Source: Hydra vulgaris (taxonomy: Eukaryota > Cnidaria > Hydrozoa > Anthoathecata > Hydridae). Taken from it: a stretch of DNA of 64,000 nt. The notes below the pieces were generated by a model. It worked only from the letters and a program-made list of their open reading frames with translations. It was not told the origin of the DNA and did no database searches. Position numbers and translations under genes: made by a program. Position 1 is the first letter of the stretch, and each line of letters starts with the position of its first letter. The DNA lies in the NCBI RefSeq assembly GCF_038396675.1, contig NC_088921.1, positions 71,381,001-71,445,000 of the forward strand. The letters run 5' to 3'. Shown in pieces: positions 33,857 to 64,000 of the stretch.

Positions 33857-33858
33857 TA

Positions 33859-39678: not shown

Positions 39679-39679
39679 G

Positions 39680-40671: not shown

Positions 40672-40708
40672 ACGATGTATTAAACTTAAGAATATAATTT
40701 ATACTAAA

Positions 40709-40845
40709 AAAGTTATGTGACTTTTTTAAGCACGTTATGTGTTAAGTTATGTGACTTTTTTAAGCACTTTTGACTATAACTATATATATATATATTTTGA
40801 CTTTAACGTTAAGTTATGTGACTTTTTTAAGCACTTTTGACTATA
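40709..40845. repeat. Three direct copies of AAGTTATGTGACTTTTTTAA
   Basis: Copies lie at about 40709, 40743 and 40809. The last two extend through GCACTTTTGACTATA and are separated by a short TA run and ACTTTAACGTT. Confidence 0.9.
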
Positions 40846-40861
40846 TATGTTTATAAATTAG

Positions 40862-42180: not shown

Positions 42181-42393
42181 TATGTGGTGCAAAAAAAAAA
42201 AAGTAAGAAAAATATTTATTCATTGACTAATCCAAGTATTATACAATACTGAATAAATGATGAATTTCGAATAATATTAGTTGACTTGCTGTAAAACATA
42301 TTTTAAAATCTTTAAAAATTGCCCATTTTCTTTATATATCTAATCAGCTTAAGAATTTTAAGTCTAGATTGGAAAAATAAAATTCATAAAACA

Positions 42394-42565
42394 GTAGCCG
42401 TGGCGAAGTGGGTAGAGTTATGGCGCATAATCAATAGGTTCGACGTTAGCTCTGGCTAAACAATCTTGCGACACCGATATGAAAGAAGGAGTGCACTTTC
42501 TGGTTAAATGCTTTTCTACGTTACTCTGTGATAGATTGTCAAGTTTATCTTTAAAAATTCCTCAA
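42394..42565 (+). mobile_element. tRNA-derived SINE, second family
   Basis: The head reads GTGGCGAAGTGGGTAGAG, where TGGCGAAGTGG is a perfect match to the RNA polymerase III box A consensus. A box B-like GGTTCGACGTTAGC lies about 38 bp on. The tRNA-unrelated body continues through GAAAGAAGGAGTGCACTTTC and TGTGATAGATTGTCAAG. The acceptor stem is not tRNA-like, so it is not a functional tRNA gene. Confidence 0.7.
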
Positions 42566-42596
42566 TATCTTACTTAAAAACCTTTTTAATATAGTA

Positions 42597-42720
42597 TAAC
42601 TGTAAAATCCCGATAAAAGTAACCCTCGAACTTCAAGTAACTCAAAGTATATTTAAAATTTTCCTTTAAATCCGGTTTTCCATAAAAATCAATAACTCGA
42701 ACTTTAACTTTAAGTCTGAC
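42597..42720. mobile_element. pogo/Tigger-like transposon end fragment
   Basis: ACTGTAAAATCCCGATAAAA, then GTAACCCTCGAACTTCAAG and AATAACTCGAACTTTAAC, resemble pogo/Tigger termini, which begin CAGTxxAACCxCGxTAACTCGAAC with repeated CTCGAAC. No transposase reading follows. The ORF at 42736-42933 does not look like one. Confidence 0.45.
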
Positions 42721-42933
42721 CATTTTCTTTGTCTCTTGGTTGTTCAAGAGTTTAAACAATATTTATGGCACATTAAGGTCAGGGTTAGGGGTACTGTTAA
42801 AAAACTTTTACTAAATCTAAGAAAGATGATGAACGGTGCTTCGGATTTAAATAAATTTTTCCTATTAGAATTATGGTTTATTCTGCGAAATGTTAATTTA
42901 AAAAAAGTACTTTTATCTCATTTGATTGAGTAG

Positions 42934-43573
42934 ATATTGTCTAAAGTTTATTGGGATGATCAACCTGCCTCAACAGGGTATCAATGGATAAACGAATATG
43001 CATGGTATAGAATTTAGGCGTAAGTTGCATGGTATAGAATTTAAGCGTGTCTATAGTTTATAAATCTTTTATATTTTGCGTGGTACTTAAAGCACTTCAA
43101 GAAGTCCTCACGGTCTTGTCACGAAGTACCACTCTGTGGAAAAGCATATAACGTAAGAGCATTTAGCTAGGAAACTTATGCCTCCTTCCTTACCAATGTT
43201 GCTTGTCTGGCCAGAGTTGGTATCGAAACTCGACTTTATGATTTGGAACCAAAACTAACCGCTGCGAATTTATACACTTTAATGATATAGGAGAAAATTT
43301 TAAAAAGCAAGAAATATAAATTGTTGTCAAATATGCTTAACTTATCCCTATTAGACTAAGTGACACATTAGTTAGATTTTAAAAAGAACAGTTGGATATT
43401 GGATAAAAAAACCTATAATTTTGTTAAATATTAACTCATTAGAGATGCAGATAAAAACTTCGAAGAACTTAAGAGTAAAATAATATTTTTTTTTTTCAAA
43501 TTTTTTTGGTTAAAAATAGAAAAGTGCCTATGCATCATAGTCGATTGCTATCTAATCACTCTCTCCTAGGAGC
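42934..43573. other. Spacer with a dispersed repeat copy
   Basis: TGCATGGTATAGAATTTAGG is duplicated at about 42999 and 43027. 43085-43190 (contains AAGAGCATTTAGCTAGGAAA) matches 22846-22905 in inverse orientation, showing a dispersed repeat family. Nothing coding was found. Confidence 0.5.
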
Positions 43574-43920
43574 ATTGGTATGACTACAATGTGAACCTCA
43601 GTCAAACATTTACTAGAATATAATTAATTTCTTAATTTTTATGGTAGAGTAGTACTATTTAATCTTAATAAATTTTTAGCATTATTCTTGCAGTAGAGAG
43701 ACCAGTTTGGCAGATTAAATAATCTCAATAACTACGCGTTGCATGACAAGACATCTAATGAATGAAAGTTAAGTAGTTAAAATGCACAGGATCCTCTCTA
43801 CTTCAAGAATAATGCTAAAAATTTATTAAGATTAAATAGTACTTCTCTACCATAAAAATTAAAAAATAAATTATATTCTAGTAAATGTTTGACTGAGGTT
43901 CACATTGTAGTCATACCAAT
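43574..43920. mobile_element. Foldback MITE with ~128-bp terminal inverted repeats
   Basis: ATTGGTATGACTACAATGTG at 43574 is mirrored at 43901-43920. The match continues through CTCAGTCAAACATTTACTAG and TTTTTAGCATTATTCTTG to about 43702/43795, with few mismatches. A ~90-bp non-coding loop (43703-43794) separates the arms. Confidence 0.92.
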
Positions 43921-45378
43921 TTTAAAATTTTTTGGAAAAAGTTCAAAGCGTTTTGACAATATCTTAAAATATTTGAGAAACTTTGAGAACAAAAAGTGAT
44001 TTTTTCAAAAAATGAAAATAAAGATAAAAATTAGTTTATAATTGGTTGTACTAGCCGCCAGGCTAAAAATATTTGTTTCAGTAAATAAGTATATATTAGA
44101 GAAAGTACTACAAGAAAATTCCCCCTAAGCAACGTTTCTATAAAATTTAATTTTTTAAATAAACACATAGTGACCTAAAATAATTAAGAAAGTTTATGTT
44201 TTTCAGCTTAGATATGTATTTTTTTTCCTCAGAAAAAAAAATTATTTTTTTTCCTCAGAAAAGAAAAGTTGACAGAAGTTTCTGTCAACTTTTCACTTAA
44301 TTTAAAAAGTCGAAAAAACCAATTTTTTTTACTTGTTTAATGGTGAAGCACCTTAAAATCATTATAAAAAAGTACTTCAATAAAGATTTTAAAATACTCC
44401 AAATTCTATATATTAGAAAATAAACTACTTAGTTTACAAAAATGGCTTGTAAGTTTTATAAACAATTTGAGTGAATTACTTAATGATTAAGCTATATTTT
44501 TATTGTAAATTGACAAAACTTCTAAGAATTTCCCGCCAATTTAAGTTTGTTAAATTTAATTTACTTGATTATTTTTATATAAAATTAAATACTTTTAATA
44601 GTTTTAATTATTCCTTTTATCATTATGATATAACTGAATTATCTTTATAGTTAAAAATGCGATCTAATGATCAAAATTTTTTCTTTATTTCAAGTAGAAA
44701 CTACATAAATAATAATTAAAAAAATCAAAGTGTACACTTTGCTTTCGATAATGCCTTTTTATATCAAGGTAATAAAATTTTTGAATGGATTTTGTATGGG
44801 TTCTTTGGGTAAAATGTCCAAAATTTCCCGCCAATTAGAAATATTTTAGGCGCTCAAAAAAATTAGATTTTTAAATCGAATTTCCAACATTTCTGAAAGG
44901 AAAATTTTTTTTGCTTAAAACCATTTATGAAAGAAAAAAGAAAAAAAGAGGAAGAAAAAAAGTAAAATTGCATTCATTTAAATTTCATTTATTTGACAAT
45001 AAAAAAAATAATTTACATTAATTATTAACATTACAAAAATTAATTTACATTAATTAATTACAATTTAAAGAACATTTTGTTTTTTATACATAAATATTAT
45101 ATATGCGTTAATAAAAGAAATTAATAAAGTAATATATTTATATATATTATAACATATATATGTTATAATATATTTAAATAAACATATATATGCGTTTAAA
45201 ATACCTTTTAAGTTAATTATTTTTAAATCTATCTACATGATAAATTAATGGACGTGCCTAAAGCCAAACCACACTTTTTACAAATTTTTTTTAGCTTTGA
45301 TAGTTTATAAATTAGAACTTAAGAAGTAATTACAAAATCATTATTTTGTTTATATTTTTGATATTAATTATTCCCTAA
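43921..45378. other. AT-rich spacer, no gene
   Basis: There is a perfect hairpin at 44263-44294 (GAAAAGTTGACAGAA and its mirror). TTTCCCGCCAATT occurs at about 44530 and 44822 in direct orientation. Palindromic TATATATTATAACATATATA lies around 45140-45190. No coding frame was found. Confidence 0.55.
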
Positions 45379-45383
45379 TATTC

Positions 45384-45642
45384 AGGGGTTGTTCATAAAG
45401 CGCGAACGCTTTTAATTCGACCTCCCCTCCCCGCATTTTCCCATACGCTCTTTTGTGTATGGGAAAATGCTTCTTCCTCCCTAAAAGTACCTCCGCTTTT
45501 AACACATCCACCCAACATTTTGTGATATTTTAAAAAAAATTTAGTCTACTTACTTTTATGATTGACCCACTGGCCATCTTATTTACGCCAATTGCAAACC
45601 CCATCTTCCCCTCCGAGCGTATGTACTTTATGAACGATCCCT
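45384..45642 (-). mobile_element. MITE copy 2 (TTCATAAAGTACATACGC family)
   Basis: The left end AGGGGTTGTTCATAAAG and right end CTTTATGAACGATCCCT are inverted copies. TATTC occurs on both sides (45379-45383 and 45643-45647) and is a likely 5-bp target duplication. It is inverted relative to the copy at 25266-25500. Inside, CGCATTTTCCCATACGCTC and its mirror GTATGGGAAAATGC make an extra hairpin that copy 1 lacks. Confidence 0.88.
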
Positions 45643-45647
45643 TATTC

Positions 45648-48296
45648 ATATTTATGGTAATAATAAAAATGTAAAAAGAAATGGTTAGATCTTCACTTTA
45701 ACGGTTAATTTAAGGGTCAAATTATACAATGGTGGTGGTGCTCAAAATTCTTTATTTTATTAATTGACGGGACAACCCCAGATATTAAACGCGCTCCTAC
45801 TATTATCAAAAAAATAGACTTGGATTCATTTGGATTGAAATTTTGCAAAATATAACGTTACGTTTTCAAAATATCGAAAAAAGGACATAAAACATATTTC
45901 TGCTAAGAAATAAAGACAAATCTGCTGAAAAGTTTTTCATATTCCACGTATTATATAAGAATGACAACTTGTTTGCCGCTGAAGCATTTCTTCTAATTTT
46001 TTTAAACGCATTTTAAAGTATAATGATGATATATAATATATATGGATAAATATAAGCCATTTTGCTAAAAAAGACAAGTATTACAATCTAGCCCTTGAAT
46101 AATAACACGGCAGTCAGTCACATATCATTTTTTTAATTCAGCAGATATTTTAAAAATTCAGTATATTTAAGTTGTAGATTTTCTCGAAGTTTGTCGCTAA
46201 ATTTTGTCTTTATATATATCCAAACTCCTAAAAAAAAAAAGAAAAAAAAAAGCAATATCAATAACATGTTTACAATATATAATACGATAGTGGAGAAGCA
46301 AGAAAGTCTCAATGCAACTAATCATTAGCCTCATATATTAACACTTAACTTATAAAAAGAAGCAATGATAAGAAAAACGATTAGGAAAACATTTTTTTAT
46401 TGCAAGTTTTTTTATTTTTTTTTTAAATTAATATTTTATAAATAAAATCTTTGCTAACAATGATTACTTAAAGATAATTTAATCACAACTAAAAATATAT
46501 CTAAACTAATCGCAAAAGTAAAAACATTCAAAATGATCTATACAATCATAAAAACAATTTAATAAAATAATGAAGAGTTTAATATCGTCAGCATACAAGG
46601 GAAATGTCCAAAACATCATTTTGAGATAATGAACAAATATTTGCGTTGAAAAGTTTTTTTTTACAAAAAAACTCATTAATAATTAATTTATTAAATTTGT
46701 GGTATATCTAACGATAGAGAATTTAAAATACTAAAATAGTGGTATAACTCTATAATGCCAAAATGGAAAAATCAATTACTTAAGGTAACTTAATAAATGA
46801 GGTAATAAACTAAACGTGATAGGTTAATAAGATATTAAAGTCAGGAAAAATACATTTATGACTATAACAATATACTAAAGAATTCTTACTACTAATTTTA
46901 CTTGTTTAAAAATTTAAAACGTTTTAAAGTACAGAAAAAGGTAGCAATATTAAAATAATACTTTTGTTGTTGTGTTTTGATTCATTCCGTTTTGATTGCC
47001 TCAAATTGATCAATGTTAGCAAATGTTGACGCCAGGTCTCTCTTAATCAACTAAAAAAATTAAACTTGTTTCTCTGAAGTTAAAATTGTTTCTCTGAAGT
47101 TAAAATGTCATCTTATGATGGCTATTGAAACAATACGTGACATACTAAGGGTTATCGATAATTACGTAAATATCGCGTATTCTTCGTATAACACAAATCT
47201 TTATATAACCTAATCAAACTTAGAGACTTAATAAAACTTACGGTACTTTGAGAAAAAACTAACTAAATCAAAACACTCCCCGCATAAAAACTTTTATGAA
47301 TATATGAAACATATTTAATGTGAACACAGTAACATATTCAAACATATAATGCGCAAAGACTGCGTGAATGAGGCACCTTTAACACTATTAAATATAGCAA
47401 TGCAGTGTTTTATTTATAAAATAAATATTTTAAATAAAATAACTCATTCATTCCATAAATAAATATAATTGCTCTTAATTTAGAAAATATACAAATTAAA
47501 CATAAATTTTAAGAAATAAGTTTTTATTTCTTCTTGAAAAAATAAATAATTTACTTAGCTGTTACTGTTTTGTTACTTTTTTTCAACTTAATTTAATTAA
47601 CTAGAACTATCACTGGCTGATATCACAAAAACTTTATGATGGATTAAATAACTTAAAAAACAATACTGAAAAATTGGTAAGCTCGATAGAAAACTGAAAC
47701 AAGTCTGTTAACAAATATTATTTGAAAACAAATAATAAAATTTATTCCTTTTTTAAAAAAGAAAAATTTTTTTTTTAAAAGAAAAAACATTTGAATAAAT
47801 AAATAAACAACGAAAAATACAAACAAAGCCCTAGACTTTTTGCATAAAACACAAAAATTATCTTTTTCGTTAACTGCGAAGATGCAATATAAACTGCAAT
47901 TAAAAAAATAGATACGAACCTTAAGCTTTATTAATGCTCCAATCTTTTAAACTAATAATAAAAAAAAAATTAATTCTAAAAAACAAAGCCGAACCAAAAT
48001 ATCTTAAACATTTTTAAATTATTAAACATTTCTATTAGCATTTTTCATAAATCTTAACATTTCTACATAAAATTAATATAGATTTTTAAATTATTAAACA
48101 TTTCTACATAAAACTTAAACGATTCAAATGATAATTTAAGATTAAACAATACTTACTTGTATATAGCGTATGATTCTTCCTATTTAAGGAACGCGTTAAC
48201 GAAGTTAACGAAGTTCCTACTTAAGGAACGCGAACGAACGAAGTTAAAAATAAAAAGTGTATTTTACAGAATCGTAACTAAGAGGCTGTTTATATG
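45648..48296. other. Gene desert, AT-rich
   Basis: No ORF or mobile-element end was recognised. A TTGTTTCTCTGAAGTTAAAA duplication lies at about 47064-47105. The AACGAAGTTAACGAAGTTCC/GGAACGCG cluster at 48190-48245 is a short local repeat. Confidence 0.5.
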
Positions 48297-49955
48297 AAGC
48301 GGGCTGCATATTGTGAAACCCTATACAGGCTCAGAAGAAGCGTAATCTGATTAATTGATTTTGAAATAGAGGCATTACACGTTTGTTAAAATATTAAAAA
48401 AATGTCAAAAAGCGAATTGAATGCTTACAAAAAAAAAATTAAAAAAAAATAATCGCATAAAAAAATCAAATAATAATAACCGAAAATTTGATTTTTCTAT
48501 AAAATTTTGTTCATTAAAGTAGTTATACTTTTACAAAATTTTTCAAATCAAAACATCCGTGCTTTTCAAAACATTTTCTTGAAAATCAAAGGTTTTGAAA
48601 AAATAGTTAGTTTCTCTAACGGTTTTGATAATTGTGATATAAAATTAATAACGGTTTTAATAACTTCGATGAAACCAAATGATGAAATTTGACTATGCTG
48701 CGATTCTCATACGATAGATTTTTCAAAACAGTTTTATAATTCAATAAAATAAATAGAATATTAGTAACTTGCTATAACTTTTTTCACATTCAGTTCTATC
48801 ATTCAGCTAGAAAAATATAAAAATAAAATTACCTTATAGCTTTTCAGAACTTTGTCTTAATTGGAGTAATTAAGATATAAATTATATAATATATAAATTA
48901 TATACATTACTAAAACTTTAATTTTGAGAAAATTGGTAGTTGGTTGTTATAGCTAGCCTAGGTAATTTGCAATATTCTCAAATTAAAAGCGATTGTAAGC
49001 ATATAGCTGATTTGGATTGGCCTAAGTATTGTATTGCAATAAAAGATTAACAAAACAGTGTAGCATTAAGTCTATGACCTGATGTCTACAAGTTTGTTTT
49101 GATATAGCGAAATGATTACCAAAACTTTTGGTAAAAAAATAACTCTTAACATACCACACTTTTATGGAGAATTTAAAAGTATTCCTTTAGAAGTTCCCCT
49201 AACCAGCCTTCTCAAAATTTAGGTTAAAAAGATTCACATGGAACATGTAAGCTAATTCTTTAGAACATCAGTAAAAATTTTCTTTTTGCAAAAACTTAAA
49301 TGTTTAACTCTATAAAAATAAAAGGTTTTTATAATTAACAAGTAATTAACAGATTAAAAAACGTTGTAGCATTATAAATTATCAGAAAAAAATTGATGTT
49401 TAAATTGCCAAATATTTGTATTTATAGTATATAGTAATTGCAAAAAGTTAGTTAATCACCTAATGGAATAACTCTTAACATGCCCACCTTAATGGAAACC
49501 TAAGGGTAAAGAGGTAGAAAAAAGAAAATTGCACACATGCAAAATCATGTTGAATGTACTATTTAAAGAACTTACATATTAAAAGAATTTAAATTATTAC
49601 ACATTAAAAGAACTTACATTATTACATATTTAAAGAATTTACATACAAAACACATGTTTGTTAGATTATAGTTGTTAAATTGAACAAAATACTGGTTTTT
49701 GTATTCTACGATTGGTAAAGAAAATACGAAAAATTACCCTCTAACAGCAATGGATTTTAAATCATTTTAAATGAAAGAATAAACTTTAATAAATTTATAC
49801 TTAATACATTATCATATAACATTATTTTACATTAAATACTTTTAAAGAGCTAAAATAAAAACTTGTTAGCTCAAGAATAATGATACCTCATAATAATGAT
49901 ACCTCAGATAATTTTACTACAATAAATATATATTTTTACTAAACTTAAAGGCTAC

Positions 49956-50028
49956 AACCTAACTAAAGCCATTTTAGCTTAAACAAAAAAACATTGCTGT
50001 TTAACCTAAAATGGCTTTAGTTAGGTTT
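49956..50028. repeat. Hairpin, 29-bp stems
   Basis: AACCTAACTAAAGCCATTTT (AGCTTAAAC) is mirrored as GTTTAACC TAAAATGGCTTTAGTTAGG around a 14-bp loop, with one or two mismatches. Confidence 0.9.
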
Positions 50029-50550
50029 GTCAAAAAATCAGTTCCGTTTTCTAATAATTTTATTATCTTTTATTCATTACTCTTTTTCAATAAATTTGTC
50101 TAATTTTTATAACTTAGTTTTTTTAGTTTAATTTTTTTTCAATTATTACAATACAAAAAAAAGGACACAACCATTTGCATTTTTTTGATGCCATAATCCA
50201 TCAATAATTTTTTTTGCTAGTAATGTCAGTGTTTATATGCAACTGTACAAACAATTACTGTTCAAAAGGAAAACATGAAACTTACTTATTTTGTTAAATT
50301 TCCAAATAGAGTGTCAATATCCAAAATTCATCTTTTTTATATAAGTAAAGGTAGCCTGCCAAACCTTTTAAATCTTCACAAAGTGTTTAATGGTTTAAGG
50401 ATGATGTTTTATTAGAGTTATGTAATAAAAAAGATATCAGTTTCATCAAAATTAAGGTTGAAACAATATAGGAAAACAAAATCTTCTTAGAAATCATATA
50501 TTCATGTGGCTTATGTAAGCTAGTTTTGCAATCAGTACAATTTTCTTTTT

Positions 50551-50680
50551 GAAAACCCTCTAATGCTCGACACTTTATAATCAACGACTCTAATGCTCGA
50601 CACTTTATAATCAAATAAATAAAGTTCTTCAACAGTAGTCTGGTAAAACTGCATATCTTCACCAGTAGTCTGGTAAAACT
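50551..50680. repeat. Two pairs of direct repeats (27 bp and 26 bp)
   Basis: CTCTAATGCTCGACACTTTA (TAATCAA) occurs at about 50559 and 50589. CAGTAGTCTGGTAAAACTG occurs at about 50632 and 50662. Confidence 0.9.
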
Positions 50681-51131
50681 GTGTATAAACTTTGTATTTG
50701 AGTATGCTTCAAGGCCAAGGACAATATATTTTATGAGAAACACATTTATAGATTTTTTCTAATTTATTTTAAAAACATTTTTTATTGCATACAATTAACA
50801 ACAGATAAAATCTCCATGACCAGATAAACTTTATTAAAAATTTGAGATTTTACGAGTGAAAGTTCTCTTGTTCAAACAGATTTTGATACCGATTGATTTT
50901 GATATTAAATGCTCTAAAGAGTACTAAAATAAAATAAATAAAACAAGACTTGTATTGATAAACTTAGTTTATCATTTCTTTGAAATTTATTTCTTAAATC
51001 TGCTTGCTTTGATTTTAATTATATTTTTCAACAAAAGCGCACTTGCCTCTCTTTCAAAATCAGCAAATCAGATTGCTCATATTTCTGCTTTTTCTGAGTA
51101 TGTATAGGGTTTCAAAATATGCAAGCGGACT

Positions 51132-52003
51132 GACTAAAAAATGTAATTGTAACTAAAAAATTTTATTATTACCGACTAAACAAACTAAAAGCTGATTTAG
51201 TCGGGTAATAATACAATTATCTTTTCATCTGATCATTATATATATTTTTGATTTTTTTTTTAATTGGTAGAGTTAAATCAAAAAAAAAAGATAAAAACAT
51301 ATAAAATAATAGATAAAAAGAAAATCTTGAGTCTTTGATAAAATGGGGGAGGGAGAAAGTTTAATAACTTTTGGGAAATTTAATAAATTTCCCAAAAGTT
51401 ATTAAACCATCCATCCTAAGTTTATTAAGATCCCCCACCCCCCATATATTAATTTTTAATTGTTATCAACAAAAAATTTATATCTAAAAACTAAAAAAAA
51501 ATTTAGTGAAAATAGGCCTTAAAAATTAGAAAATAATTACTTCAGTCACTGATAAAAACAAAAACTTTCAGTGTAAACAGGCTTCGAAAATCTTTGATCC
51601 AGCAAATTTTGATGTCGAAAACGAGCTTTTCATTTATTTCTCACTATAAATCAAGTATAAAAACTAATAACAGCATATTAAATCCTATTGAAATTATGAT
51701 AAAACAGCTGTTAAAAAATGCGCATTTGACCAAAAGCCACACTTGAATTAAATAGTTTTATGTGTGTTTTTAAAAAAATATTATTTTGGATTTATAAATT
51801 GAAATTTTTCTATAAAAAATACCCTATATTGTAACAAGAAAAAAATCACCAAATCCCAAAATATATATAGCTTATTAAAATAGCAGAAACTTAGCTTCTT
51901 TTTTTATAAACATTCACCTTAACATGTTTAAAAAAAAAATGATTTTAAGATGTTTCAATGATTGAAAATACTATTAATTGAATATGACATTTTATTTCTT
52001 TAG
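51132..52003. other. Spacer upstream of the kinase exon, one hairpin
   Basis: 51359-51407 is a perfect hairpin (GTTTAATAACTTTTGGGAAA (TTT) and its mirror) flanked by G-rich and C-rich runs (GGGGGAGGG, CCCCCACCCCCC) that can extend the stem loosely. No upstream kinase exon was identified. Confidence 0.6.
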
Positions 52004-52958
52004 CTATTTGGATTGTGCATCAGCTGTCTGATCAGCAACCTGATTTATCAACACAGCTAACTTTGTACAGTTTGTATCTGAAAAAAAATGAGTTTTTTTA
52101 CTTTTAAAATTAGCGAATTGGAAAAAAAAGTGCAACACCTGGAGATCCCAGAACTATCAATTAACTTTGACCAGCTAATTGGTGAAGGCAGCGCTGCTAA
52201 AGTATACCAATCAAACATAAGGAAACAGCAGTTAGCAGTAAAAGTTTTCAAGACACAGTTTTCAAAAAAACAAGTTTTTACAGTCTGTGAAGAGCTAAGA
52301 CAAATTTGGCATAAAAATATTGTTAACTTTATTGGGTACAGTGTTCGACCAACAGCTCTGTGTTTTGAAATATGCTGTGTTCATGTCCATGACACTTTTG
52401 TCTATTCTCTAAAAGAATTAATAAATATTTTTAATGACAATGAATACTTTAATTTAACTGAAAGAACATCATATTTAACGCAAGCTTGCGAAGGAATAAT
52501 GTACCTCCACGAAAAAAACATTATACATAGAGACATTAAGCCAACTAACATGTTGGTCTGTGGTTCCATTCAAAATTTGATAATAAAAATATCAGATTTT
52601 GGTGATATGACAACAATAAAAAACACAGTCACATGCACTATCAATGACAGCTTAAAAGGAATAACAATATGTTATGTAGCGCCAGAGCTTTTAGATCGAA
52701 ATACAAATAAACTTTCGGTGTTAACTGACATTTATGCCTTTTTTATTTCAAGAAAAAAATCTTCCTATAATCAATGATGTTTTACTCCTCCAAGCCATTA
52801 AAAACAATGAAAGACCAGATACTTGTATACTTAGTTTTCTTTACAAAAACAATGAAAAAGATATTAAAAAAATAACAAAAGCAATAAAATTAGGTTGGAA
52901 ATCATCACCAGAAGAAAGATTATCAATGAAAAGTGTAAATGATTTTTTTAATTTGTAA
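52004..52958 (+). pseudogene. Protein kinase (TKL/RIPK-like) domain, frameshifted
   Basis: An acceptor AG at 52002-52003 opens a frame IWIVHQLSDQQPDLSTQLTL...LKKNEFF that joins the kinase frame only if one T is removed from a 7-T run at 52093-52099. The kinase then shows [11 protein letters not shown] (glycine loop), LAVKVF (ATP-binding Lys), [13 protein letters not shown] (catalytic loop with D and N), ISDFGDM (DFG) and VAPELL (APE-like). It ends SSPEERLSMKSVNDFF at TAA 52956-52958. At about 52737, after TDIYAF (subdomain IX), the frame shifts and several residues before LFQEKNLPI seem to be missing, so helix F is broken. All catalytic residues are present, yet two frame breaks argue for a recent pseudogene or assembly errors. 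Substrate is unknown; the protein is presumed cytoplasmic. Confidence 0.85.
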
Positions 52959-53380
52959 CTATCAAAATATTTTTACATATTAAAGATTTCCAAGAGACTT
53001 TCTGATAAAAAAAACACATTTCCTATGAGTTGTACAATAAAATTTACAAAATAAGAATGTTATAAATAAGAATATGACATAAAATTAATATTCTAAAAAA
53101 AAATTAAAAAAAAGGAACACATTGTAAACTCTTGGGAAGCAATTAAGCTAATAGTATTGTGATTTCACAGACATACTTGACATCTGTGATTCCACAACAG
53201 TTTAGAGTTAAAAATTGGAAACCTAAAATTCCTATAAGCGCTAATATACATAATGTAATATTTAGCACTAGCAAAATATAATTAAAATATTATTTTATAA
53301 TAAAATTTAATTAAACTAATTAAAAAAACAACTTAAAAATATTAATAAAAAGGTTACAATAAATGTTTTTAATGTTTTAG

Positions 53381-56300
53381 CTATTGAAAGCGTTTCATTC
53401 AATAAATGAAAAGGGAAGTGAATTTATCAGTGTAAGTATTTTTTGTTAAATTTCCTAAAAATTGAAAAATAACTTAATAATAAATAAAAATAATAATCTA
53501 TGAATATAAAAACCATGAAATATTGAAAACAAGGTGAAGTAAAAACTCAACACTATTTTTATTGTAGTAATTTATATCATTCCATCCATGGAATGATATA
53601 AATTACTATAATAAAAATAGTTGTCGCTGTTTGGGAAGGTTATTGTGTGAGGAAAGACCACTTGGTCAGATGAAACTAGACGTAATATTTTCTTCTACTT
53701 CAGATGAAAACATAAAAACATTTTGATTTTAGATTAACTTTGCATTCTTTGTAACTATTGTGGATCAAGAATGGACATTTAATAAAATATTTGTACCATT
53801 GTTTTCTCAATAGACTAGATGCAATTTCAAAACGGTTAAAATAATCGGAGGTTAAACAATGAACAAAACTTTGTTAAATACGCTATCAGTATATAATAGT
53901 TAATATAATTTCAAGTATTTTACAGTATTTGTTTATTTACAGTTTTCTATTTAATTTTTCACAATAAATCACAGTTCTCTTCAAAATAAATAAATAATAT
54001 TGATTTGGACTGCAATATTTACTTTAATAAGTGTACCCTTTTCGAAGGATTTTTTAAAACATATTTGATAAGGGTGCATTTTAATAAGAATCTGATTAGT
54101 AAAACAAAACATTCATACATCTGTATCAAAACATGTTTTTTTTATTATACCAATTTGAATAAATGATGTAATCATAAAAAATTAACTCAGAACATAATTA
54201 GAAATTTTTATAAATTAATTTTTTTTTGATTGTTAAAAGTTTAGATTTTAAAAACAATTCAATACACTTAAGCTTTTAAGCATAAAAATTCATTTTTCTG
54301 GTATACTTTATTGATCTAATATTTATCAAATAACAGATATTTTGAATCCACCAAAACTAAAAAAAATTGTTTTTTGGGATAACTTACTTTATGTATAACT
54401 TAATACCTTATGCCATTTTAAAATATACTAACCCCACCTTTATTTTTATTTACACACAAAATAACTTGGTGTTAAAAACATACCTTTAAAACACTTTGAA
54501 GCAACATTCAAAAAAAAAAATGCTTTTTATGTCAAAAAAAAAATTAATTTAATAATTTGATTCTAAAAAAAGTATTAATATAAAAATATAGATAATAATA
54601 AAATTATAATTCAAAAACACTTTTTACAGAAAAGACGCCTTTCTCCAATTGAAACTGCAAAGAGCTATATAGAAATGGAAAAAGACCCAGAGAATTTATA
54701 CAAAAAACTAATAGACAAAACAAAAGGTAAATAGAGTATTATTTTTATTAATGTGTTTCAATTTATCATAAAATTGCATAACTTGATATTTTTCCAACGT
54801 TTTTTTCAATTATAATTTGGATGATTAAAGCTAATTTTTACAATAAAGGACCTGTTTATTTAATTATTTGATTTTGCTTACAACAATTGAAAATTATGAT
54901 TCTTTGGAAATACTAAAAATAGATTAACATTTTTAAAATAGGAGAAACAAGGGATTATATGCCTTAAGGAGCTTTTGAAAGAAAAAAAAGCAGCTAAATC
55001 AAAACGAAGTGGCAATTTGAGATAACGCACTTACACATATATTTATATTATATAAATATATATAATAGAACAAAGATGTCCCAATAAAAATAAAATAAAA
55101 TTCCAAAGGTGTCCTAAAGTCAAATAAATGCTAAAGGTGTACCAATAAAATGTACAGTATTGCTTTCCAAATTATTTTATGATTTGTAAAGAGCTGTTAA
55201 AACTTCTTTATATCTTTGTCATTTTTAAATAAAGGTTTTGGCGTCTTTTCTTTTGAAAAAATTTATAAAGGTCAGTTCATTGCTCAATATAGAGGAGACT
55301 TAGTGCCAAAAAAGGAAATGAATGATAAAATAAAACATTACGAAGAAACAAACGCTGGTAGCTACGTTTATGACTTTATACACAATAATATTGAATACAG
55401 GTAACTATAAATTTTATTGAATTATACTGTGTTAAAAAAATTGATGGTGAGAACATAATAACTTTGTTGAAATTGTTTAGTATTGATGCCACATTACATT
55501 TAAATTATGTTGGACGTTACATTAATGATTCTAAATATTTTCCGAAAGCTGTGATGAAAAAAGTTTTAATCAAAAACACTCCATCATTATGCTTGTTTGC
55601 ATTAAAAGATATTGAACCAAATGAAGAAATACTGTATTTCTATGGTGTTGATAATTTATCATGGCATCCTGAGGTAAATTTTAAAAATACATTTTAAAAA
55701 TTATATTAAACTTTTTTTGACATCTACTTCTTTACGTCTTTACAGGAGTTTAAAAGAAAACAACAAAAAAGAAATAAATCAAAGGTAAACCACTATGTAA
55801 AAATGATGTATGAAATATATTTAAAAATAGACTAAAATTTAATTTCTGAAATTATGTTTCTGTCTCTTAAGGGCACAAGACCTGTTTTATATGTTTATAA
55901 AATATATTAATAAGTTTTAAAACACATTTTAGATGTCTTAAACATGTCTTGTGCCACTAAGTCAGCTATAACAGAGACCAGAAAAGTAAAACCTGCTTCT
56001 TCTTCTTATTATTATTTTTTTCTAATCAAATTCACTCTCAACAAAGCTGCAAGCAACCACTATTAAGTTGGAGTTACATTCAAAACAAAAAATAGAGTTA
56101 AAGAGCGAGATAACAGTTGATGGAGGACCATCACATATGCTTTATTAATTTTTTTTTCTGTTTATCTCACCAAGGTCAAAGGGTCTCTATTGTCGAATAG
56201 GCTACTCTTTTCCTTTTTTTAATACTGTGTGTACCATCCTCTCCTAACTCTTTAACTCCAAAACTAAAAATATATTTGAACAAGGTCTCTACATAATATA

Positions 56301-59300
56301 TAAGATCAGTTTATGATTTAGTAAAAAGACACAAAAGTTAATGATGTAATTTTTAGATATTGTGTCCGGTAACCAAGAAACAGTTCTTGATAAATTCTTA
56401 ACTTAAATTTTTATTAGTTTTAGTAAACTTTTCAGTTAAAAAAATAATAAGTGTGTTATAATATTCAAAACTAGGACCAAGATAGTTCTTCGAAAAACAT
56501 AACTTTGGTTGAAGAAATCAAAAATGGTATAGTTTAAATTCTTTTCACAAAAATTTCAAAGTTTTTACTAGAAATTGATAAAATAAAAAACAACACTCTG
56601 AATTTGACATTAAAATGAGATTGAAAAATTGACAATAAAATGAGTTTGAATAAAAAGATCTAATTTCAAAATATGTATTAATCTGTTTTATTTAATTTAA
56701 CAGATTTAGGTATTGAAAAAAACATTCCATTGGAAGAAACATTATCAATATCGCCAATTACAGAGGTGGGTGTATATTATAACATAGATAAAAAAATAGT
56801 GAAACTTTTTTATTTATTTTCGCTTTTTTATCTTTTAAACAAAACCACATTGTGTTTATATTTAAGTATGCAAAAAGTAAGCATTTTGTTTATATTTGAT
56901 TATGTAATTTTTGCATTGAGAATGCAAAAATTAAAAGAAGAGCACCAAAAAATATTTATTCTAGCAATAAACAAGTATTGACATTTTATAAATTTCAAAC
57001 ATAACATGTAAATTAAAGCTTTCTTTTTATTAAAATAAATAAACATAAACATTTATAAATAAACATAAATATTTAGGTTCACAATTGTTTTTCTATAACA
57101 AAGGACACTGAATTAGATGACGAAACCCAACTAGGTATTGTTTAAAAAATTTACTTTAATGTAGCAATTTTTTCTATGGTTTGACACAAATTTTTGATTT
57201 GACAGATTTGCATAATATAAATATAAATAAAAAATACAATTACTTTTTAACAAGCTAGAAATTTTTCAAAAAACTATTTATAATGATGGTTATAATGATA
57301 CTTGAGGTTTGCTGTATTAAACCATTTCTAAATTATTCTGCAACACCTTGTATCATATATATTTAAAAAAAGTTTACATGGTTTGTTGTAGTATAGATCT
57401 AACCATTTAAATCCTCTCCTGAATAGTTTAGTTTTTGGCAGATACAAGGTATTGCTTCTCAACCCTCAAAATAGCTATAATCGCTTAGTATGATATGAGT
57501 GAATTTATTTTTTATAAGAGTTTTTACTTCTATTTAACTTTGGTTTTTTTATGTTAAATTTTTATAGAAAACCATTACATTTTTTTCTATTTTAATGTAT
57601 ATTATGCCTATTAAAAATGATTTTTTTTTATAGATTTAGATAATGAAGAAAAACACTTTTTTCTGAAAATTGCTATAGCTAATTTAACAAGTTCTGAGGT
57701 TTGTGTTTCTATCTTATTGAATTGGAAAATATAAAAATACATGTTTAATTAAAAAATATATAGTGATCTAAGTTTAAGCTTTAAGTAAATTACCACAAAC
57801 TAAATCATTAAAATTATGGTTCATTACAATGAATTTGCAAAAAACAAGTTTTTTCTTTAAACAAGTTTTTTCTTTAAAGTAGAAAATAAGTCATTCCATA
57901 CTATTTAAAACTTGCAGAAGTGTAAAATCCTATTTAATTTTTGCTTATGTCCACATTACTTCAATTTTAGTGTTACTTTATTCTTATTTTTATAAGTTTA
58001 GACAATCAAGAGATATTAATTCCATTTAATAATATATTAATAATGATATTAAATAAAAGACTTAAGTAAAATAATAAACCAGTTATTAGTTTTAATTAAA
58101 ATTAAAAGCTTTTGTCGAAACAAGCACTGAAACAAAAAATTTTGCAATTATTAATTATCTAGTATCTCTATTAAAACAGCAAATAAATAAAAAAAGTACA
58201 ATAAATAATTTTATGTTCTTTTACTTTAGCTTTATTGCAGTTTTTCAGTTTAGGACCCAAATGCCAATGAAATATCTAATGATAATATTACTATGAATAT
58301 GATAATCCTTTTCAAGGGCGACAGTACATGCTAGTAATAACCCATACAATGTAAACTTGAAATCCTGCATTAACATCCAAAAAATTTTTAGAAACTTTAA
58401 AGTTTTTATAAAAAATTAATTATTGAAAAGGAAAAGTTGTATATACACATGTAACCCATGAAATCCTAGATTAACATTTCATGGGTTTGCTGAACATATG
58501 AACATATACTTTTTCACGTCTTTTTTAGTTCTGCTGTTATCAATTTGATGTTGTTTTACCAATCACAAACTGATCAACTGAGTTAATGGCAGAGTTGGTA
58601 AGATTGATTTAAACTTGTAAAGATAATGCACAGCTTTTGTTTTACTTTTAGAGAGTTTGCTAATTTAAATTCTGTCATAATGTCATCATTGAAATCTGAT
58701 TTCCAGATTAATTAAACACTGCAGTTTTTATTTTAAAACATTTCTCAGGAAAGCTGTATATACACATATACACATATGTGTATATGTGTATATACATATA
58801 TGTGTATATGTGTATATACAGCTTTCCTGAGAAATGTTTTAAAATAAAAACTGCAGTGTTTAATTAATCTGGCAATCAGATTTCAATGATAACATTATGA
58901 CAGAATTTAAATTAGCAAACTCTCTAAAAGTAAAACAAAAGCTGTGCATTATCTTTACAAGTTTAAATCAATCTTACCAACTCTGCCATTAACTCAGTTG
59001 ATCAGTTTGTGATTGGTAAAACAACATCAAATTGATAACAGCAGAACTAAAAAAGACGTGAAAAAGTATATGTTCATATGTTCAGCAAACCCATGTAATG
59101 TTAATCTAGGATTTCAAAATTGCTAAGTACTTATGAATAGAGTTTTCATAAGATACTTTATTGATATTAGGGTCCTAAATTTACATATCCTGTTATCCTC
59201 AACAAAGAAAATAAATAAATGCATATTTACCTATTTACGTAAATATATATAAATTAATTTATATATATATATATACGTAAATATATAATATATAAATTAA

Positions 59301-60643
59301 TTTATAATTGCTCTGTTCTTTAAAGAACATTGAGCACTCTATTTTGTAGAATACATTTTAAAGTTGTTTACATATATATCTATATCTATATGTATATAGG
59401 CTTGTTCTTCTACATTAAAAAATAATGCACCAGATAGTGAACCATCAGAAGGTATATCTTTTAAAAAAAGTTTTTATAGAAAAAAGTTTAGGAATTAATC
59501 ATAACATGGAAAAATATTGTTTTCTGAAACTGTTTTACAGATTTAAACATCGATTTTTGTGTGGAATGTGCAATATCTAACTCGTCATTTCATAATACAA
59601 GCTTAGAGGTTTAAGTTTGTTTAGCTTGAAATACAAAAAAAGTGTTCTAATTTTATTTGTATGTTACATTAATGTTTACGTTAATGTAATTGTGGTGTTG
59701 TGGTCAATATAATAGTGGAGTAGTGGTCAAGCCCTTGCTTTGCAAAGAAGTTCCAAGTTCAATTGTTACTATGTCACTGGTAGTACTGGGTCCAACTTGT
59801 AATTGGGTTGCTGGTAGTAACTTGGCCAAACTAATTGGCTTAACAGCTGCCTATTTTACAAAGGTTTGTGTTTTAAAGTTAAAGAGCTGGGAAAGGGTTG
59901 TAACCACAGAATAAAAAAATAAAAAAACTAAACTAAAAAAAAAATTTTATAGATGGAATGCCTGAGAAACTCAGCTCGTCACTGAAACAAAGCTAGTCTC
60001 TACCACTACACCACTACTGTATAATATATGAAATCAGTTTAGGATTTAGTTTAAAAACAAAAAAAAAATGATGCGATTTTTAGATTTAGTATTCTTAATT
60101 AACCAAGATAAAGTTATTGATATATTTTTGGCTCAAAAACAATTTTTTGTAATAAATTAGGATCAAGATTGTTCTTCAAAAAACATAACTTTGGTTGAAG
60201 AAATCAAAGAAGGTATAGTTTAAATTTTTTTCATAAATACTTCTAAAATAAGTAATAAAACACAACATACACACTAAGTATTATTAGTATTATCCCACAC
60301 ACAAAGAATACTAAGTACTATATTATACACAACACATACACACTAACAAGACACACACTAAGTATTATTATCTAGTATTATTAGTATTATTTCACACACA
60401 AATAATATTAAGTACTATATTATAAATTAACACTAAAATATTTTAACAAAAACTGTTAAAGTAACTGTTTTTAAACAAATGAAGTTGATTTGAGGACAAT
60501 TGAAACTGAATCATAAAAATGAGTTTGAAAAAAAGATCTAATTTCAATATAGGTATTAATCTTTTTTATTCAATTTAGCCGTTTTAGGTATCGAAAAAAA
60601 GATTCCAGTGGAAGAAACATTACCTGCATTGCCAATCACAGAG
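53381..60643 (+). CDS. SET8/KMT5A-like SET-domain protein, 13-exon partial model
   Basis: Exons: 53381-53431, 54630-54726, 55235-55400, 55481-55673, 55746-55784, 56475-56526, 56704-56765, 57077-57134, 57634-57698, 59400-59451, 59541-59608, 60161-60212 and 60579-60643. All are open, GT-AG bounded and phase-matched (340 codons); first and last exons are not found. Exons 2-4 form the SET domain: KGFGVFSFEKIYKGQFIAQY, GDLVPKKEM, AGSYVYDFIHNNIEYSIDAT, then NYVGRYINDSKYFPKA, PSLCLFALKDIEPNEEILYF and YG. The IDAT...GRxIN...YxYG order is that of SET8-type histone H4 lysine methyltransferases. The usual GRLINHS is GRYINDS (His to Asp) and YDYG is YFYG, so activity is doubtful. After a basic stretch (FKRKQQKRNKSK) the tail is four repeats of an exon pair. 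Alternatively it is a transposon-spread KMT5A-like copy. Confidence 0.75.
53552..53620. repeat. Near-perfect hairpin, 32-bp stems, in intron 1
   Basis: CTATTTTTATTGTAGTAATT (TATATCATTCCA) is mirrored at 53589-53620 with one mismatch and a 5-bp centre. Confidence 0.93.
56165..56290 (-). mobile_element. SINE 3' body fragment (same family as 63512-63747)
   Basis: CACCAAGGTCAAAGGGTCTC and GTACCATCCTCTCCTAACTC, then TTTAACTCCAAAAC, match the corresponding parts of the 63512-63747 copy. The tRNA-like head is missing. It lies at the start of the duplicated segment that carries exons 6 and 7. Confidence 0.55.
56300..56945 (+). repeat. Segmental duplication unit A (exons 6-7)
   Basis: It matches 60020-60770 in the same orientation. 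Shared landmarks are TTATGATTTAGT/TTAGGATTTAGT, the 52-nt exon (ACATAACTTTGGTTGAAGAA), AAAAAGATCTAATTTCAA, the second exon (GAAGAAACATTA), and intron sequence TATATTATAACATAGATAA. Identity is highest in the exons and their immediate flanks. Confidence 0.85.
58459..59116. repeat. Large palindrome, ~310-bp arms, in intron 9
   Basis: Left arm 58459-58767 (TGAAATCCTAGATTAACAT, GCTGAACATATGAACATATA, TTAGTTCTGCTGTTATC, CCTGAGAAATG in inverse) and right arm 58799-59116 are almost identical, with only a few mismatches and a ~10-base indel near the outer ends. The centre is TATACACATATACACATATG-type alternating sequence, itself self-complementary. It is non-coding and looks like a young foldback MITE between exons 9 and 10. 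Confidence 0.95.
59300..59350 (-). repeat. Dispersed repeat copy shared with 10325-10371
   Basis: TTGCTCTGTTCTTTAAAGAA (CATTGAGCACTCTATTTTGTA) is the inverse of the segment beside the palindrome at 10372. Confidence 0.85.
59690..59930 (+). mobile_element. tRNA-derived SINE, diverged, with A-rich tail
   Basis: Head: GTAGTGGTCAAGCCCTTGC (box A-like) and CCAAGTTCAATTGTTAC (box B-like), spaced as in tRNA. The body ends with GAGCTGGGAAAGGGTTGTAA CCACAGAATAAAAAAATAAA, comparable to the GAGTTGGGAGAGGG of the family copy at 63512-63747. Just downstream (59950-60020) a second tRNA-like head lies on the minus strand (TAGTGGTGTAGTGGTAGAGA read inversely). Confidence 0.65.
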
Positions 60644-60770
60644 GTTTATGTATATTATAACATAGATAACAAAATAATGAAACTGTTTTATTTATTTACA
60701 TTAATTTTATTTCATCACTTGAGTGTAACAACATTTTGTTTATGTTTGAGTATGCAAAAATTGAAATAAG
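60020..60770 (+). repeat. Segmental duplication unit B (exons 12-13)
   Basis: The partner of 56300-56945. The 52-nt exon differs from exon 6 at few positions (DQDCSSKNITLVEEIKE versus DQDSSSKNITLVEEIKN), and exon 13 matches exon 7 apart from 3 extra nucleotides and several substitutions. An intronic tandem duplication (60263-60422) is private to this copy. Confidence 0.85.
60263..60422. repeat. Intronic direct repeat rich in CACACACTAAGTATTATTAG
   Basis: Two copies of a unit of roughly 90-100 bp (CACACTAAGTATTATTAGTA ... TACTATATTATA) lie in intron 12. Confidence 0.8.
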
Positions 60771-61197
60771 AAACTTAAAAAAAACTTTAGTTGGACTAAT
60801 ATTAATTTTTTTATATTGTATAAAAAATTAATTTTACTGCAGTATTATTAGTAATTTTTAAACCATATTTAGAAAAACAAAACTGTTGCCACCATTTAAA
60901 AAGTTATTTTAATGGTGGTAGAAACCAGTACTTTTTATTACAGAGTGTTTAGACAGGACAATTTGAGGATACATGACGTTAGTTTTAGCACTAATTTTGC
61001 TTTAACAAAACTGTTGTTTAAAGTTGTTGTTGTTCATACAATTAACCATAGAAACAATTTTGAAATATTTATATTAAACATCTATAAAAAATAAGATTAC
61101 ATGTAATTGAAAAAAAACTGCTTTTTATTATTTTTATTTTTTGGGTTTTTTTTTTTTTAAATTCTCTTAGGTTTAGTTTAGCTTAGTTTTTAATTAA
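60771..61197. other. AT-rich spacer, no supported exon
   Basis: The ORF at 60912-61094 lacks family resemblance. No further exon pair fitting the module rule was found. Confidence 0.4.
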
Positions 61198-61566
61198 AGA
61201 TTAAAAAAAAGAATATTCTGGAGTCTATCAACTTTGACCTTGGAGCCCTTAGTCCTGATTGAAAAAATTGATAAAATTTGGCATCTGACTTATAGAAAAC
61301 GTATTAAACAGGAGTTGAATCAACTCAAATTTGTTGGATTGTTTGATTTTTGTGGGGGAAAAAGCAGCTCTCCTCCTGCCTCTTTAATTTTTTTGAAGAT
61401 AGATTATAATAGAAAATTTTATGGTGATAATGATTTGTATATAAATATAGACTTGAAAATAATGAAAAGAATTCAAAAGTTAAAAAAAAATTATATCATA
61501 AAAAATAAAAATGCTAAACATTACAAAAAAATTTCAACATCATTAAAAATTTATAGAGTAACATAG
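61198..61566 (+). CDS. ORF of unknown function (possible exon)
   Basis: The frame is open from 61198 to TAG 61564-61566 and contains TLEPLVLIEKIDKIWHLTYR, LKFVGLFDFCGGKSSSPPAS and FYGDNDLYINIDLKIMKRIQ, followed by a Lys-rich tail. There is no good ATG at the start of the coherent part, so if real it is an exon or a relic. GC content is slightly above its surroundings. I do not recognise it. It lies about 550 bp after exon 13 of the SET-domain model, in the same orientation, but a splice junction linking them was not evident. Confidence 0.3.
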   Translation, partial: RLKKRIFWSLSTLTLEPLVLIEKIDKIWHLTYRKRIKQELNQLKFVGLFDFCGGKSSSPPASLIFLKIDYNRKFYGDNDLYINIDLKIMKRIQKLKKNYIIKNKNAKHYKKISTSLKIYRVT

Positions 61567-61679
61567 TGTAAACTAATTAGTGTTAGAGATCATTTTTAAA
61601 GTACACAAGGTACTAATAATCTTTTAATTTCAACTAAAAGTTAAATTTTGTCATATTTTGTAAATAACCACTACATTTG

Positions 61680-61870
61680 CATAATAAAAAGAACTCAATT
61701 GAAGTTGAAAAGAACTGGAAAGAATTGAACTGCAAAGAACTAAACATTGATTTGCAAAGAAATAAACAATTTATAAACAAGGCATTATAACTACTTTATT
61801 GAAATGCAAAGAACTAAACGATTCATAAACAAGGCATTATATAATACTTTATTGAAATAATTATTTAATA
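61680..61870. repeat. Tandem repeats: short AAAGAACT units and a ~53-bp duplication
   Basis: AAAGAACT-type octamers recur at 61688-61765. A unit with TGCAAAGAACTAAACGATTC (ATAAACAAGGCATTAT) then occurs twice, at about 61752 and 61805. Confidence 0.85.
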
Positions 61871-63511
61871 CTTGATTGAAATAATTATTTAATATATATA
61901 ATTATGAAAAAAAAAAATTATTTAAAATAATTATTCATTTAAAATAAATATTAAATATAAATAAGTATTTTATTTGAAATAAAAATAAGTCTTACTTATT
62001 TTTATTTAACATTTAATATTCAATTAATTCACTAACTTTCAAACAAAAATATCTTTATAATATTTTGCCAACGTTTCAAAAATAGTCAATTAAAAAAAAT
62101 CACAATAATGAATTTAAAAAAATGCCTTTTTAAAAAATAAAACTCTTAGTAAAGTTTATCATGCTTTGAGAACAGTTTTTTAATTTAACTCTATATAGTA
62201 CGGTTTTTGAACAACTTTTTGAATAAAATAAAAAAATTTAATTAGTCTGATGGTAATTTGATTAGTTTTGGGAAATTATAACTTTAAATACTAGTCCTAG
62301 TGAGTGCTTAAAAGACATGTTCAATTACACAAAAAATAATATACAAAATTTAAGAAAATTCAAAGATAGATTTAGAAAAATAAATTTCTTTCAATAACGT
62401 TGGTTTGCAAGTAATTTAAATATAAAAAAGTTTAAAATCAGTTGTAAGTTAAGTTTCAACTCATTGATTACATAGCATTTAAATAATCTGGCGTTTTAAA
62501 TTTACAACTAAATAGTTATAAGTGAAATATTTTATTTTTAAAAATTATTTAATTTAACAAGCAATAATTATCTAATACCTAAAAAAAAACCATTGCAATT
62601 TCCTTAATTCAAAAATTTCAAGATTGCCAACTTCTTTCAGACAATAGCAATTTGTGACCACTTAAAATACTTTTTTTTATTAATGATATCTTTTTTCTTT
62701 ATCTAAATGCTTAACTGTTTAATTTCTAACTTTTAATTGTCTGGTGTCAAAAATTCATAGAGATAAACGGTCTACATAAAATTAAAAAAAAAGGTAATTG
62801 TTAAACAAAAATAAGAAAGTTTCAGAATACGTTACTTATCTTTTTATTTAGGAATTCACTTTAAGTTATAATTTTATTTAGCTCTTGCACAAAACAGATG
62901 CATGTTAAAAAATCTTATTTTTCAGATGACCATTGGTCATCTGATATATAAGATTCTATAATAGGTAAATATGACATTTTATAATACTTATACAAAAATC
63001 ATATGTTCAAAAAGAAGTAACACTTATTTAAAAAAATCTAAACAACTATATAAATTTTTTATATACCTTTATAACATTGTTTTCCATTATAAATATTCTT
63101 CCTCCAACGGTTCATCTTGAAGAATTTTTTGAAATATTTTATCATCCATTGATTTAATAAGATATATAAAAATATTGTTGTATACCCAATCAAGACAAAT
63201 ATAAGTTGTATGTTAATAGTAAGGTTATTGTTATATATCTAAAACAAACATATCATATATGTAAAACAAACACAATCATATATAGCATGCATAATATAAT
63301 TATAAGATAAAATATTTTCATAGTTTTGCTTAGTCGCGAGAACTAGTTAGTAGTAACAAAACGTTGTAATAAAATCTAATTAGGCTACAAACTGTGGGTC
63401 TAGTAAGCGACCGGGGTTGATATTTGATCAGGGCCGAGGCCGGGTTTGATAAAACATAGCCAGGTCCGGGTTTGTGACAGGGGCTGCATTAATATTGATA
63501 TTCCTTATAAA
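61871..63511. other. AT-rich spacer, no supported gene
   Basis: A sequence after TTTTTCAG at 62925 could be a terminal exon reading DDHWSSDI and stopping. It fits the phase-1 entry of a module second exon but lacks a partner, so it is not annotated as coding. Confidence 0.45.
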
Positions 63512-63747
63512 TTTTTTTTTTTTTTTTTTTTGTAATTTACCTCCCCAAGGCCAAGAAAGCCACTAGAGATGAGGATGGTACTTGTGGTTATAACCCTCTC
63601 CCAACTCTATAACTCCGAAACACGAACCTTGACGAACAAGGCCGCTGCGCGGAGGAACAAGTTGAGCGCGGTACTCCCAGGGACGTGGTGGGAATCGAAC
63701 TCAGAACCTCTCGCTTATGAAGCGAGCGCTCTACCACTACCGCATCA
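63512..63747 (-). mobile_element. tRNA-derived SINE, best-preserved copy, poly(A) tail
   Basis: On the minus strand it starts GATGCGGTAGTGGTAGAGCG, with box A (TAGTGGTAGAGCG) and an anticodon-arm-like CTCGCTTCATAAGCGAG hairpin whose loop would carry CAT. Box B (GAGTTCGATTCCC) comes next. The body follows: CCACGTCCCTGGGAGTACC, GCGCTCAACTTGTTCCTCCG, GGAGTTATAGAGTTGGGAG. It ends after GGCCTTGGGGAGG in about 20 A residues (the T run 63512-63531 on the plus strand). RNA polymerase III transcription and LINE-dependent copying are inferred from class knowledge. It is not a tRNA gene because the acceptor stem does not pair. Confidence 0.88.
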
Positions 63748-63802
63748 AATATACTATTGTTATTTAAAATTCATGATACATTTTATATAAAGGTATATAT
63801 AT

Positions 63803-63945
63803 CATCTCATCGTCATCATCATCACCACCATCATCATCATCATTATCATCTCTACATCATCATCATGATCATCATCATCATCAAGCACACAGTTGATGAT
63901 GATGATTAAGATGATTATGATGACAATGATCATCATCATCATTTT
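63803..63945. repeat. (ATC/GAT)n trinucleotide repeat with internal inversion
   Basis: CATCATCAT units run to about 63881. GATGATGAT units then occupy 63892-63930 and CATCATCAT returns, so the array can fold back on itself. Confidence 0.92.
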
Positions 63946-64000
63946 AATCGTTGGCATCATTACCATCTTCTCTGATGCACACTATAAATATAATTACTCT

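Follow-up and report, generated by a model that had tools for sequence, protein, structure and literature searches.

Fusions of a SET methyltransferase with a DNA enzyme derived from a transposon are exemplified by SETMAR, a single primate gene in which the methyltransferase is joined to a mariner transposase, and the giant elements known as Starships have a DUF3435 recombinase near their 5' end and carry cargo genes. Cryptons, which also occur in cnidarians, are described as having a tyrosine recombinase (YR) with an R-H-R-Y tetrad; terminal repeats were not found in the animal Cryptons, whose only recognisable domain is the YR (PMC3212892). Genes similar to KMT5A have been reported as expanded in several animals, with up to 65 in Hydractinia, 24 in Hydra and 61 in sea urchin; according to the available text of that work most of the Hydractinia and sea urchin genes have N-terminal SET domains, the long ones share conserved C-terminal ends, and the SET domain of KMT5A/SETD8 is stated to be C-terminal (PMC10368294). 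One Hydra SETD8 protein is mentioned in the accessible part of a further paper (PMC10031314). Here we describe a SET8-like gene followed by an array of two-exon modules in a 64,000-nucleotide stretch of the Hydra vulgaris genome (C2:71381001-71445000, contig C2; hereafter the window). We consider it likely that this locus represents one decayed member of a dispersed and probably mobile Hydra gene family encoding a SET8-like head, a module linker, a zinc-finger-like stretch and a tyrosine recombinase.

Like SETMAR, the family joins a SET methyltransferase to a transposon-derived DNA enzyme, and a SETMAR chain was among the PDB SET matches of the window head; unlike SETMAR, the enzyme here is a recombinase, the SET domain is of the SET8 type and there are many copies. 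By comparison with Starships, the recombinase gave no Pfam recombinase match and lies about 29 kb to the right of the left edge that the copies share. The likeness to the KMT5A expansion, as far as the available text of PMC10368294 describes it, extends to the N-terminal SET8-like domain, the long proteins, the many non-adjacent hydrozoan genes and the long conserved C-terminal part. In contrast to the view taken there, in which these are H4K20 methyltransferase genes, the C-terminal part here resembles a tyrosine recombinase and the copies are dispersed; the word recombinase is absent from the main text of that paper. Unlike in the animal Cryptons, as characterised in PMC3212892, the recombinase here comes after a SET head and a module linker, and a kinase lies upstream. 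No literature on a SET domain joined to a Crypton in Hydra was found among the papers listed, subscription papers being mostly outside the coverage of the search, and none was found on Starships together with tyrosine recombinases and Hydra.

The architecture is seen in an annotated paralog of the window gene, the 1064 amino acid (aa) Hydra protein LOC124810008 isoform X2 (P0002). P0002 consists, in order, of a SET head, four module-like units, a CxxC..H..C stretch (zinc-finger-like by eye; no Pfam zinc finger was found) and a region with recombinase motifs. Its head is identical to that of the window gene at 125/150 positions, and while module 1 and module 4 are considered below, module 2 matches P0002 module B (22/37 identical, 0/5000 shuffles) and module 3 matches P0002 modules A (26/37) and C (27/40; 0/5000 shuffles each). 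The original prediction had called for a protein search with the modules; among proteins of 187-595 aa (269 candidates) nothing matched the module part at E up to 10, and it was a longer query that led to P0002, one of two matches at E up to 10 among 7,995 scored proteins, the other being an unrelated fly SET protein. The tail of P0002 finds its counterpart in the 40 kb beyond the window, on the strand of the head: first 66611-66790, then a pair of overlapping matches covering 66882-68206, and further on 74100-74222 (window numbering), the whole starting 2.6 kb past the window end. Since head, modules, zinc-finger-like part and recombinase are thus ordered at the window locus as in P0002, the module array is a linker and not a free tail, and the earlier description of a C-terminal tail is not borne out. 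Neither of the gene bounds first proposed holds: the paralog matches extend beyond 60643 and beyond the window, to about 74.2 kb, and the annotated KMT5A-like protein isoform X1 of Hydra vulgaris (P0001) begins upstream of 53381, at 52734-52934. A single-sequence fold of P0002 had a mean predicted local distance difference test score (pLDDT) of 33.5 and was unusable.

Copies of this arrangement were found in many places. A genome-wide Pfam SET search gave at least 66 matches in 64 places, and recombinase matches numbered at least 89 in 69 places, spread over all 15 contigs (15/15); these counts are lower bounds, with pieces within 5 kb merged into places. At 19 of the 64 SET places, the window and its C8 counterpart among them, a recombinase lies within 15 kb downstream on the same strand, against about 0.04 expected, with none upstream and none on the opposite strand among the matches listed. 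Across 10,014 bp that take in the introns, the C8 locus (L013) shares 99.47% identity with the window; the loci on C14 (L029) and C11 (L014) are also close, and an older copy (L023, 79-89%) lies at C2:71.08 Mb. Three loci on three contigs (L017, L018 and L022) make up a divergent subfamily with 96-98% mutual identity over about 8 kb or more, in pieces; the order of kinase, SET and recombinase is that of the window locus, and the kinase match stands at the same place, with about 68% DNA identity. We examined 28 SET-domain places as DNA (L001-L008, about 3.4 kb each; L013-L032, 10 kb each). The P0002 head was matched by 16 that by eye look like the window gene family and by two, L001 and L025, that look like other SET genes; 10 had no match to it at E 1e-3. 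A recombinase was present within the examined stretch in 5/28 (L017, L018, L022, L027 and L032).

The recombinase itself is best seen in P0004, a reading frame from L022 that is open over 539 aa and shares 246/537 residues with P0002. Their conserved islands comprise NARRGGEPARLLL, TGKGNNHLVP, NRxRxSTL and HMGHSxAINxNxY, and the E. coli XerD residues R148, K172, R247, H270 and Y279, which we take to be the catalytic ones, align with R, K, R, H and Y of both proteins. At the window locus the frame is broken after box I, has a His at the expected catalytic Tyr and contains 9 TGA and 2 TAA codons, whereas the matches at C8, C14, C2:37.5 Mb and C11 have no internal stops, the C11 match covering only 30-476 of the 539 positions. 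Viral contigs gave 20 matches to the pattern, of which none was confirmed.

The gene lies in a recurring segment that, judged from search hits and from blastn with C8 and C14 DNA, occupies 37658..64000 of the window on the + strand, runs on to at least 75.7 kb and recurs in order at C14, C8, C11 and C2:37.5 Mb. Homology with these sister loci spans 37658 to at least 75700 (window numbering), which corresponds, judged from the end points, to 34-41 kb at the other loci, and the left edge at 37658 is shared by all four. The alignment is continuous with C8 over 42247-72139 and has gaps with C14 and C11; C11 DNA to the left of 54268 is unaligned in the examined stretch. A segment of about 220 bp at 63527-63747, where the C8, C14 and C11 alignments break, has by eye a tRNA-like part and is probably an insertion of a short interspersed nuclear element (SINE).

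A mobile element is the likeliest source of such segments. It may be argued instead that they are interspersed segmental duplications of a host KMT5A-like gene fused with an ancient domesticated recombinase, with nothing in them self-mobile, and the little coding matter recognised in the shared span of 37.7-75.7 kb would suit that explanation: between 41 and 74 kb only the kinase, SET, modules and recombinase were recognised, with frames of at least 95 aa listed and most of these not searched. However, the SET-recombinase pair recurs at 19 of the 64 SET places and also in divergent subfamilies that have their own near-identical copies on different contigs, and the recombinase frame can be open with all five aligned catalytic-type residues, so that duplication of a host gene appears to us rather unlikely.

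Several observations nonetheless weigh against a mobile recombinase gene. The divergence between copies is a mosaic: compared with C8 over 41000-72000, the window has 0 mismatches in the seven 1-kb bins of 51-57 kb, but past 63 kb there are 27-71 per kb. This pattern points to gene conversion or a mosaic assembly, and it also fits the rival explanation by duplication. Only search hits anchor C2:37.5 Mb, leaving C8 as the one continuous alignment beside the gapped C14 and C11. The left edge adjoins a different repeat that in most of its copies stops at 37655, and is therefore ambiguous: it may be a true end or the site of a second insertion. Neither a 3' edge nor a target duplication nor an empty site was seen, the right end not having been reached and empty sites not having been searched for, and for this reason large segmental duplication keeps its share of probability. 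At 45/64 SET places there is no recombinase within 15 kb among the matches listed, a count to be read with the caveat that the Pfam SET search also picks up ordinary SET genes. Searches of Pfam, PHROGs, NCBIfam and PDB matched the recombinase part to no recombinase, whether family or chain, its hhalign comparison with XerD was not significant, and searches with profile A1 were swamped by SET matches and gave no recombinase. As the assignment rests on motifs, and the adjusted motif pattern also occurred in 89/200,000 shuffles, a tyrosine recombinase is likely and not proven. Modules 1 and 4, finally, have no clear counterpart in P0002 (best 72/5000 shuffles). The adjoining repeat at 30500-37655 has a counterpart along its whole length at C12:62360474-62367796 and partial ones at dozens of places, and contains a Tc1/mariner-type transposase frame at 32674-33309.

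If the preferred reading of a mobile gene family holds, the family would spread as a recombinase-driven, Crypton-like element, the SET head might mark the chromatin where the recombinase binds, and the modules could act as a tolerant flexible spacer whose length changes by duplication or loss of exon pairs. Because each exon pair is a 0-0 unit, such a spacer can gain or lose pairs. A broader and more tentative proposal is that Hydra has large tyrosine-recombinase elements, tens of kb long, which carry a kinase and a SET8-type methyltransferase fused to the recombinase through a linker grown by exon pairs, and that the KMT5A-like expansion of hydrozoans and sea urchin would then consist largely of mobile-element genes marking the chromatin of their own target or copies. 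If true, a methyltransferase-recombinase fusion in dispersed copies would amount to a chromatin-writing mobile element, the published expansion of H4K20 methyltransferase genes would be recast, and the linker would be a clean example of exon-pair duplication inside such a gene.

All 13 exons claimed for the window gene were rebuilt base by base and are open, bounded by AG and GT and consistent in phase, at the positions given. The four modules are on the + strand. Module 1 is made of 56475..56526 (DQDSSSKNITLVEEIKN) and 56704..56765 (DLGIEKNIPLEETLSISPITE), module 2 of 57077..57134 and 57634..57698, module 3 of 59400..59451 and 59541..59608, and module 4 of 60161..60212 and 60579..60643; beyond the exon model, modules 2 and 3 are supported by their P0002 homology and modules 1 and 4 by their alignment with each other. 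First exons measure 52, 58, 52 and 52 nt (phase 0 to 1) and second exons 62, 65, 68 and 65 nt (phase 1 to 0) in modules 1-4, so the predicted pair rule of lengths and phases was recovered; GAG precedes GT in 4/4 second exons, 3/4 of which start with AT, and the encoded lengths of 38, 41, 40 and 39 aa were confirmed. The intron between modules 2 and 3 contains a 658 bp palindrome at 58459-59116, with 646 positions matching its own reverse complement, which resembles a foldback element or a miniature inverted-repeat transposable element (MITE) and is present in the C8 copy too.

With a GC content of 25.5%, one may ask whether these exons are no more than open stretches that AT-rich DNA offers by chance between an AG and a GT, and first-exon candidates are indeed common, at 7.3 per control window (45 windows of equal size, taken from the + strand left of 52 kb and from the whole - strand). 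Without the GAG rule the pattern is weak: the region yields 5 chained pairs where controls average 2.1 (range 0-5), and a chain of four was reached by 4/200 Markov sequences. With the rule, which was read off the data before testing, the module region holds four GAG-ending second-exon candidates against a mean of 0.04 in control windows, and 0/200 Markov sequences produced a chain of four pairs. Homologous modules in the annotated protein P0002, and modules in the same phase with like exon lengths at other loci, make chance scarcely credible for the array; for modules 2 and 3 the paralog homology refutes it, and the control windows also speak against it.

Growth of the array by duplication of symmetric 0-0 exon pairs, as originally put forward, is supported. 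Tandem exon duplication is described in the accessible text of PMC9013439 as the duplication of neighbouring exons within a gene; the unit here differs from the duplications treated there in being an exon pair and in forming a linker in a multi-copy gene. Modules 1 and 4, which are not adjacent to each other, are a DNA duplicate that includes intron sequence: 47/52 positions are identical in the first exons, 52/62 in the second exons, 91/115 in the right flank and 98/130 in the left, and the acceptor AG of the module 4 second exon is 3 nt upstream of the position aligned with the module 1 acceptor. Among the other module pairs of the window, only 2 and 3 showed protein similarity beyond shuffles (1/1000 shuffles). 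A tandem array of three module-3-type pairs occurs at L005, on C6, with first exons of 52 nt and second exons of 62 or 68 nt, and every pair closes with GAG/GTTTGC. Together with the module 1/4 duplicate, this array is the best evidence that exon pairs were duplicated. L017 and L018 each have two second-exon candidates of like sequence, 59 nt long, and L022 has one. Modules have also been lost, since the C14 copy lacks modules 1 and 2 by deletion, and in the C11 copy a deletion that cuts through module 2 has taken away its second exon along with modules 3 and 4.

The head of the gene is SET8-like, as had been recognised, with a Pfam SET match of 3.5e-13 over E3-E4 and KMT5A/SETD8 structures as best PDB matches, from 5.3e-15. 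Its exons, also on the + strand, are E1 (53381..53431, donor GTAAGT), the pre-SET exon E2 (54630..54726), which contains a Met that aligns with residue 1 of P0002, E3 (55235..55400) and E4 (55481..55673; GRYINDSK, YFYG) with the first and second parts of the SET domain, and the basic exon E5 (55746..55784), which ends in a GTAAAC donor or is read through to a stop at 55833-55835. The domain is not at the C-terminal end, with modules and recombinase coming after it both in P0002 and at the window locus. The NHS motif of the cofactor site is needed for KMT5A/SETD8 activity, and it is not kept in either the window gene or P0002, where NHSK has become NDSK. A 70 bp palindrome (94% matching) lies at 53552-53621 in the intron following E1.

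P0001 was the sole protein found by the first protein search, and its head is identical to that of the window gene. It runs from its first coding exon at 52734..52934 (+ strand, donor GTAAAT), where its N-terminus maps and which encodes the tail of a kinase C-lobe, to 53381 and on to the read-through of E5, and contains no module. The protein kinase reading frame is at 52088..52777 (+ strand, Pfam Pkinase 6.8e-29), with a frame break near 52734 and the remainder of the kinase in a different frame. As an annotated SET protein that starts in a kinase tail, the region 52088-52934 indicates a kinase-SET transcript.

Whether the modules are ever used at this locus must be weighed against the possibility that regulated splicing yields a long SET protein with a module tail as an adaptable interaction region. 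The counterpart of E5 in P0002 joins a module directly, and an E5-to-module splice is therefore plausible in principle; the E5 donor (AAG/GTAAAC) is good, the frames and phases are intact in the window, and the module exons of C8 are identical bar one base. Between modules 1 and 4 the nonsynonymous divergence (dN) of 0.110 is below the synonymous divergence (dS) of 0.255, a comparison of 111 codon-aligned bases whose 14 differences are too few to show selection. Against these points, P0001 ends ahead of the modules, the module part has no protein match in the search given above, and no terminal exon was identified. The five donors used by P0001 are all GTAA (5/5) compared with 0/8 module donors (Fisher p 0.0008, small sample), although matches to the whole donor consensus overlap, at 5-8 and 4-6, respectively (p 0.02). 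With deleted bases excluded, exons and introns diverge to about the same degree: window and C11 are identical at 482/495 positions in head exons E2-E5 and at 1588/1621 in four introns, and for the older L023 the values are 454/494 in E2-E5, 208/232 in the four module exons present and 1266/1403 in four introns. This points to little or no coding constraint on the window copy. Stops were found in module 2 of C11 and in module 1 and E3 of L023. The adaptable linker or interaction region that had been proposed is thus unsupported for this copy, in which exons diverge as introns do and the annotated protein omits the modules; we regard a spliced module tail as improbable, and the product of the window copy is probably, at most, the short SET protein that lacks them.

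Two further features were noted apart from the gene. A reverse transcriptase fragment is located at 19291-20004 of the window. Beyond its end, L009:7167-9987 (71167-73987 on the window scale) has about 20 partial copies, mostly of 77-85% identity, which cluster on C2:0.2-12.4 Mb and form a local repeat cluster.

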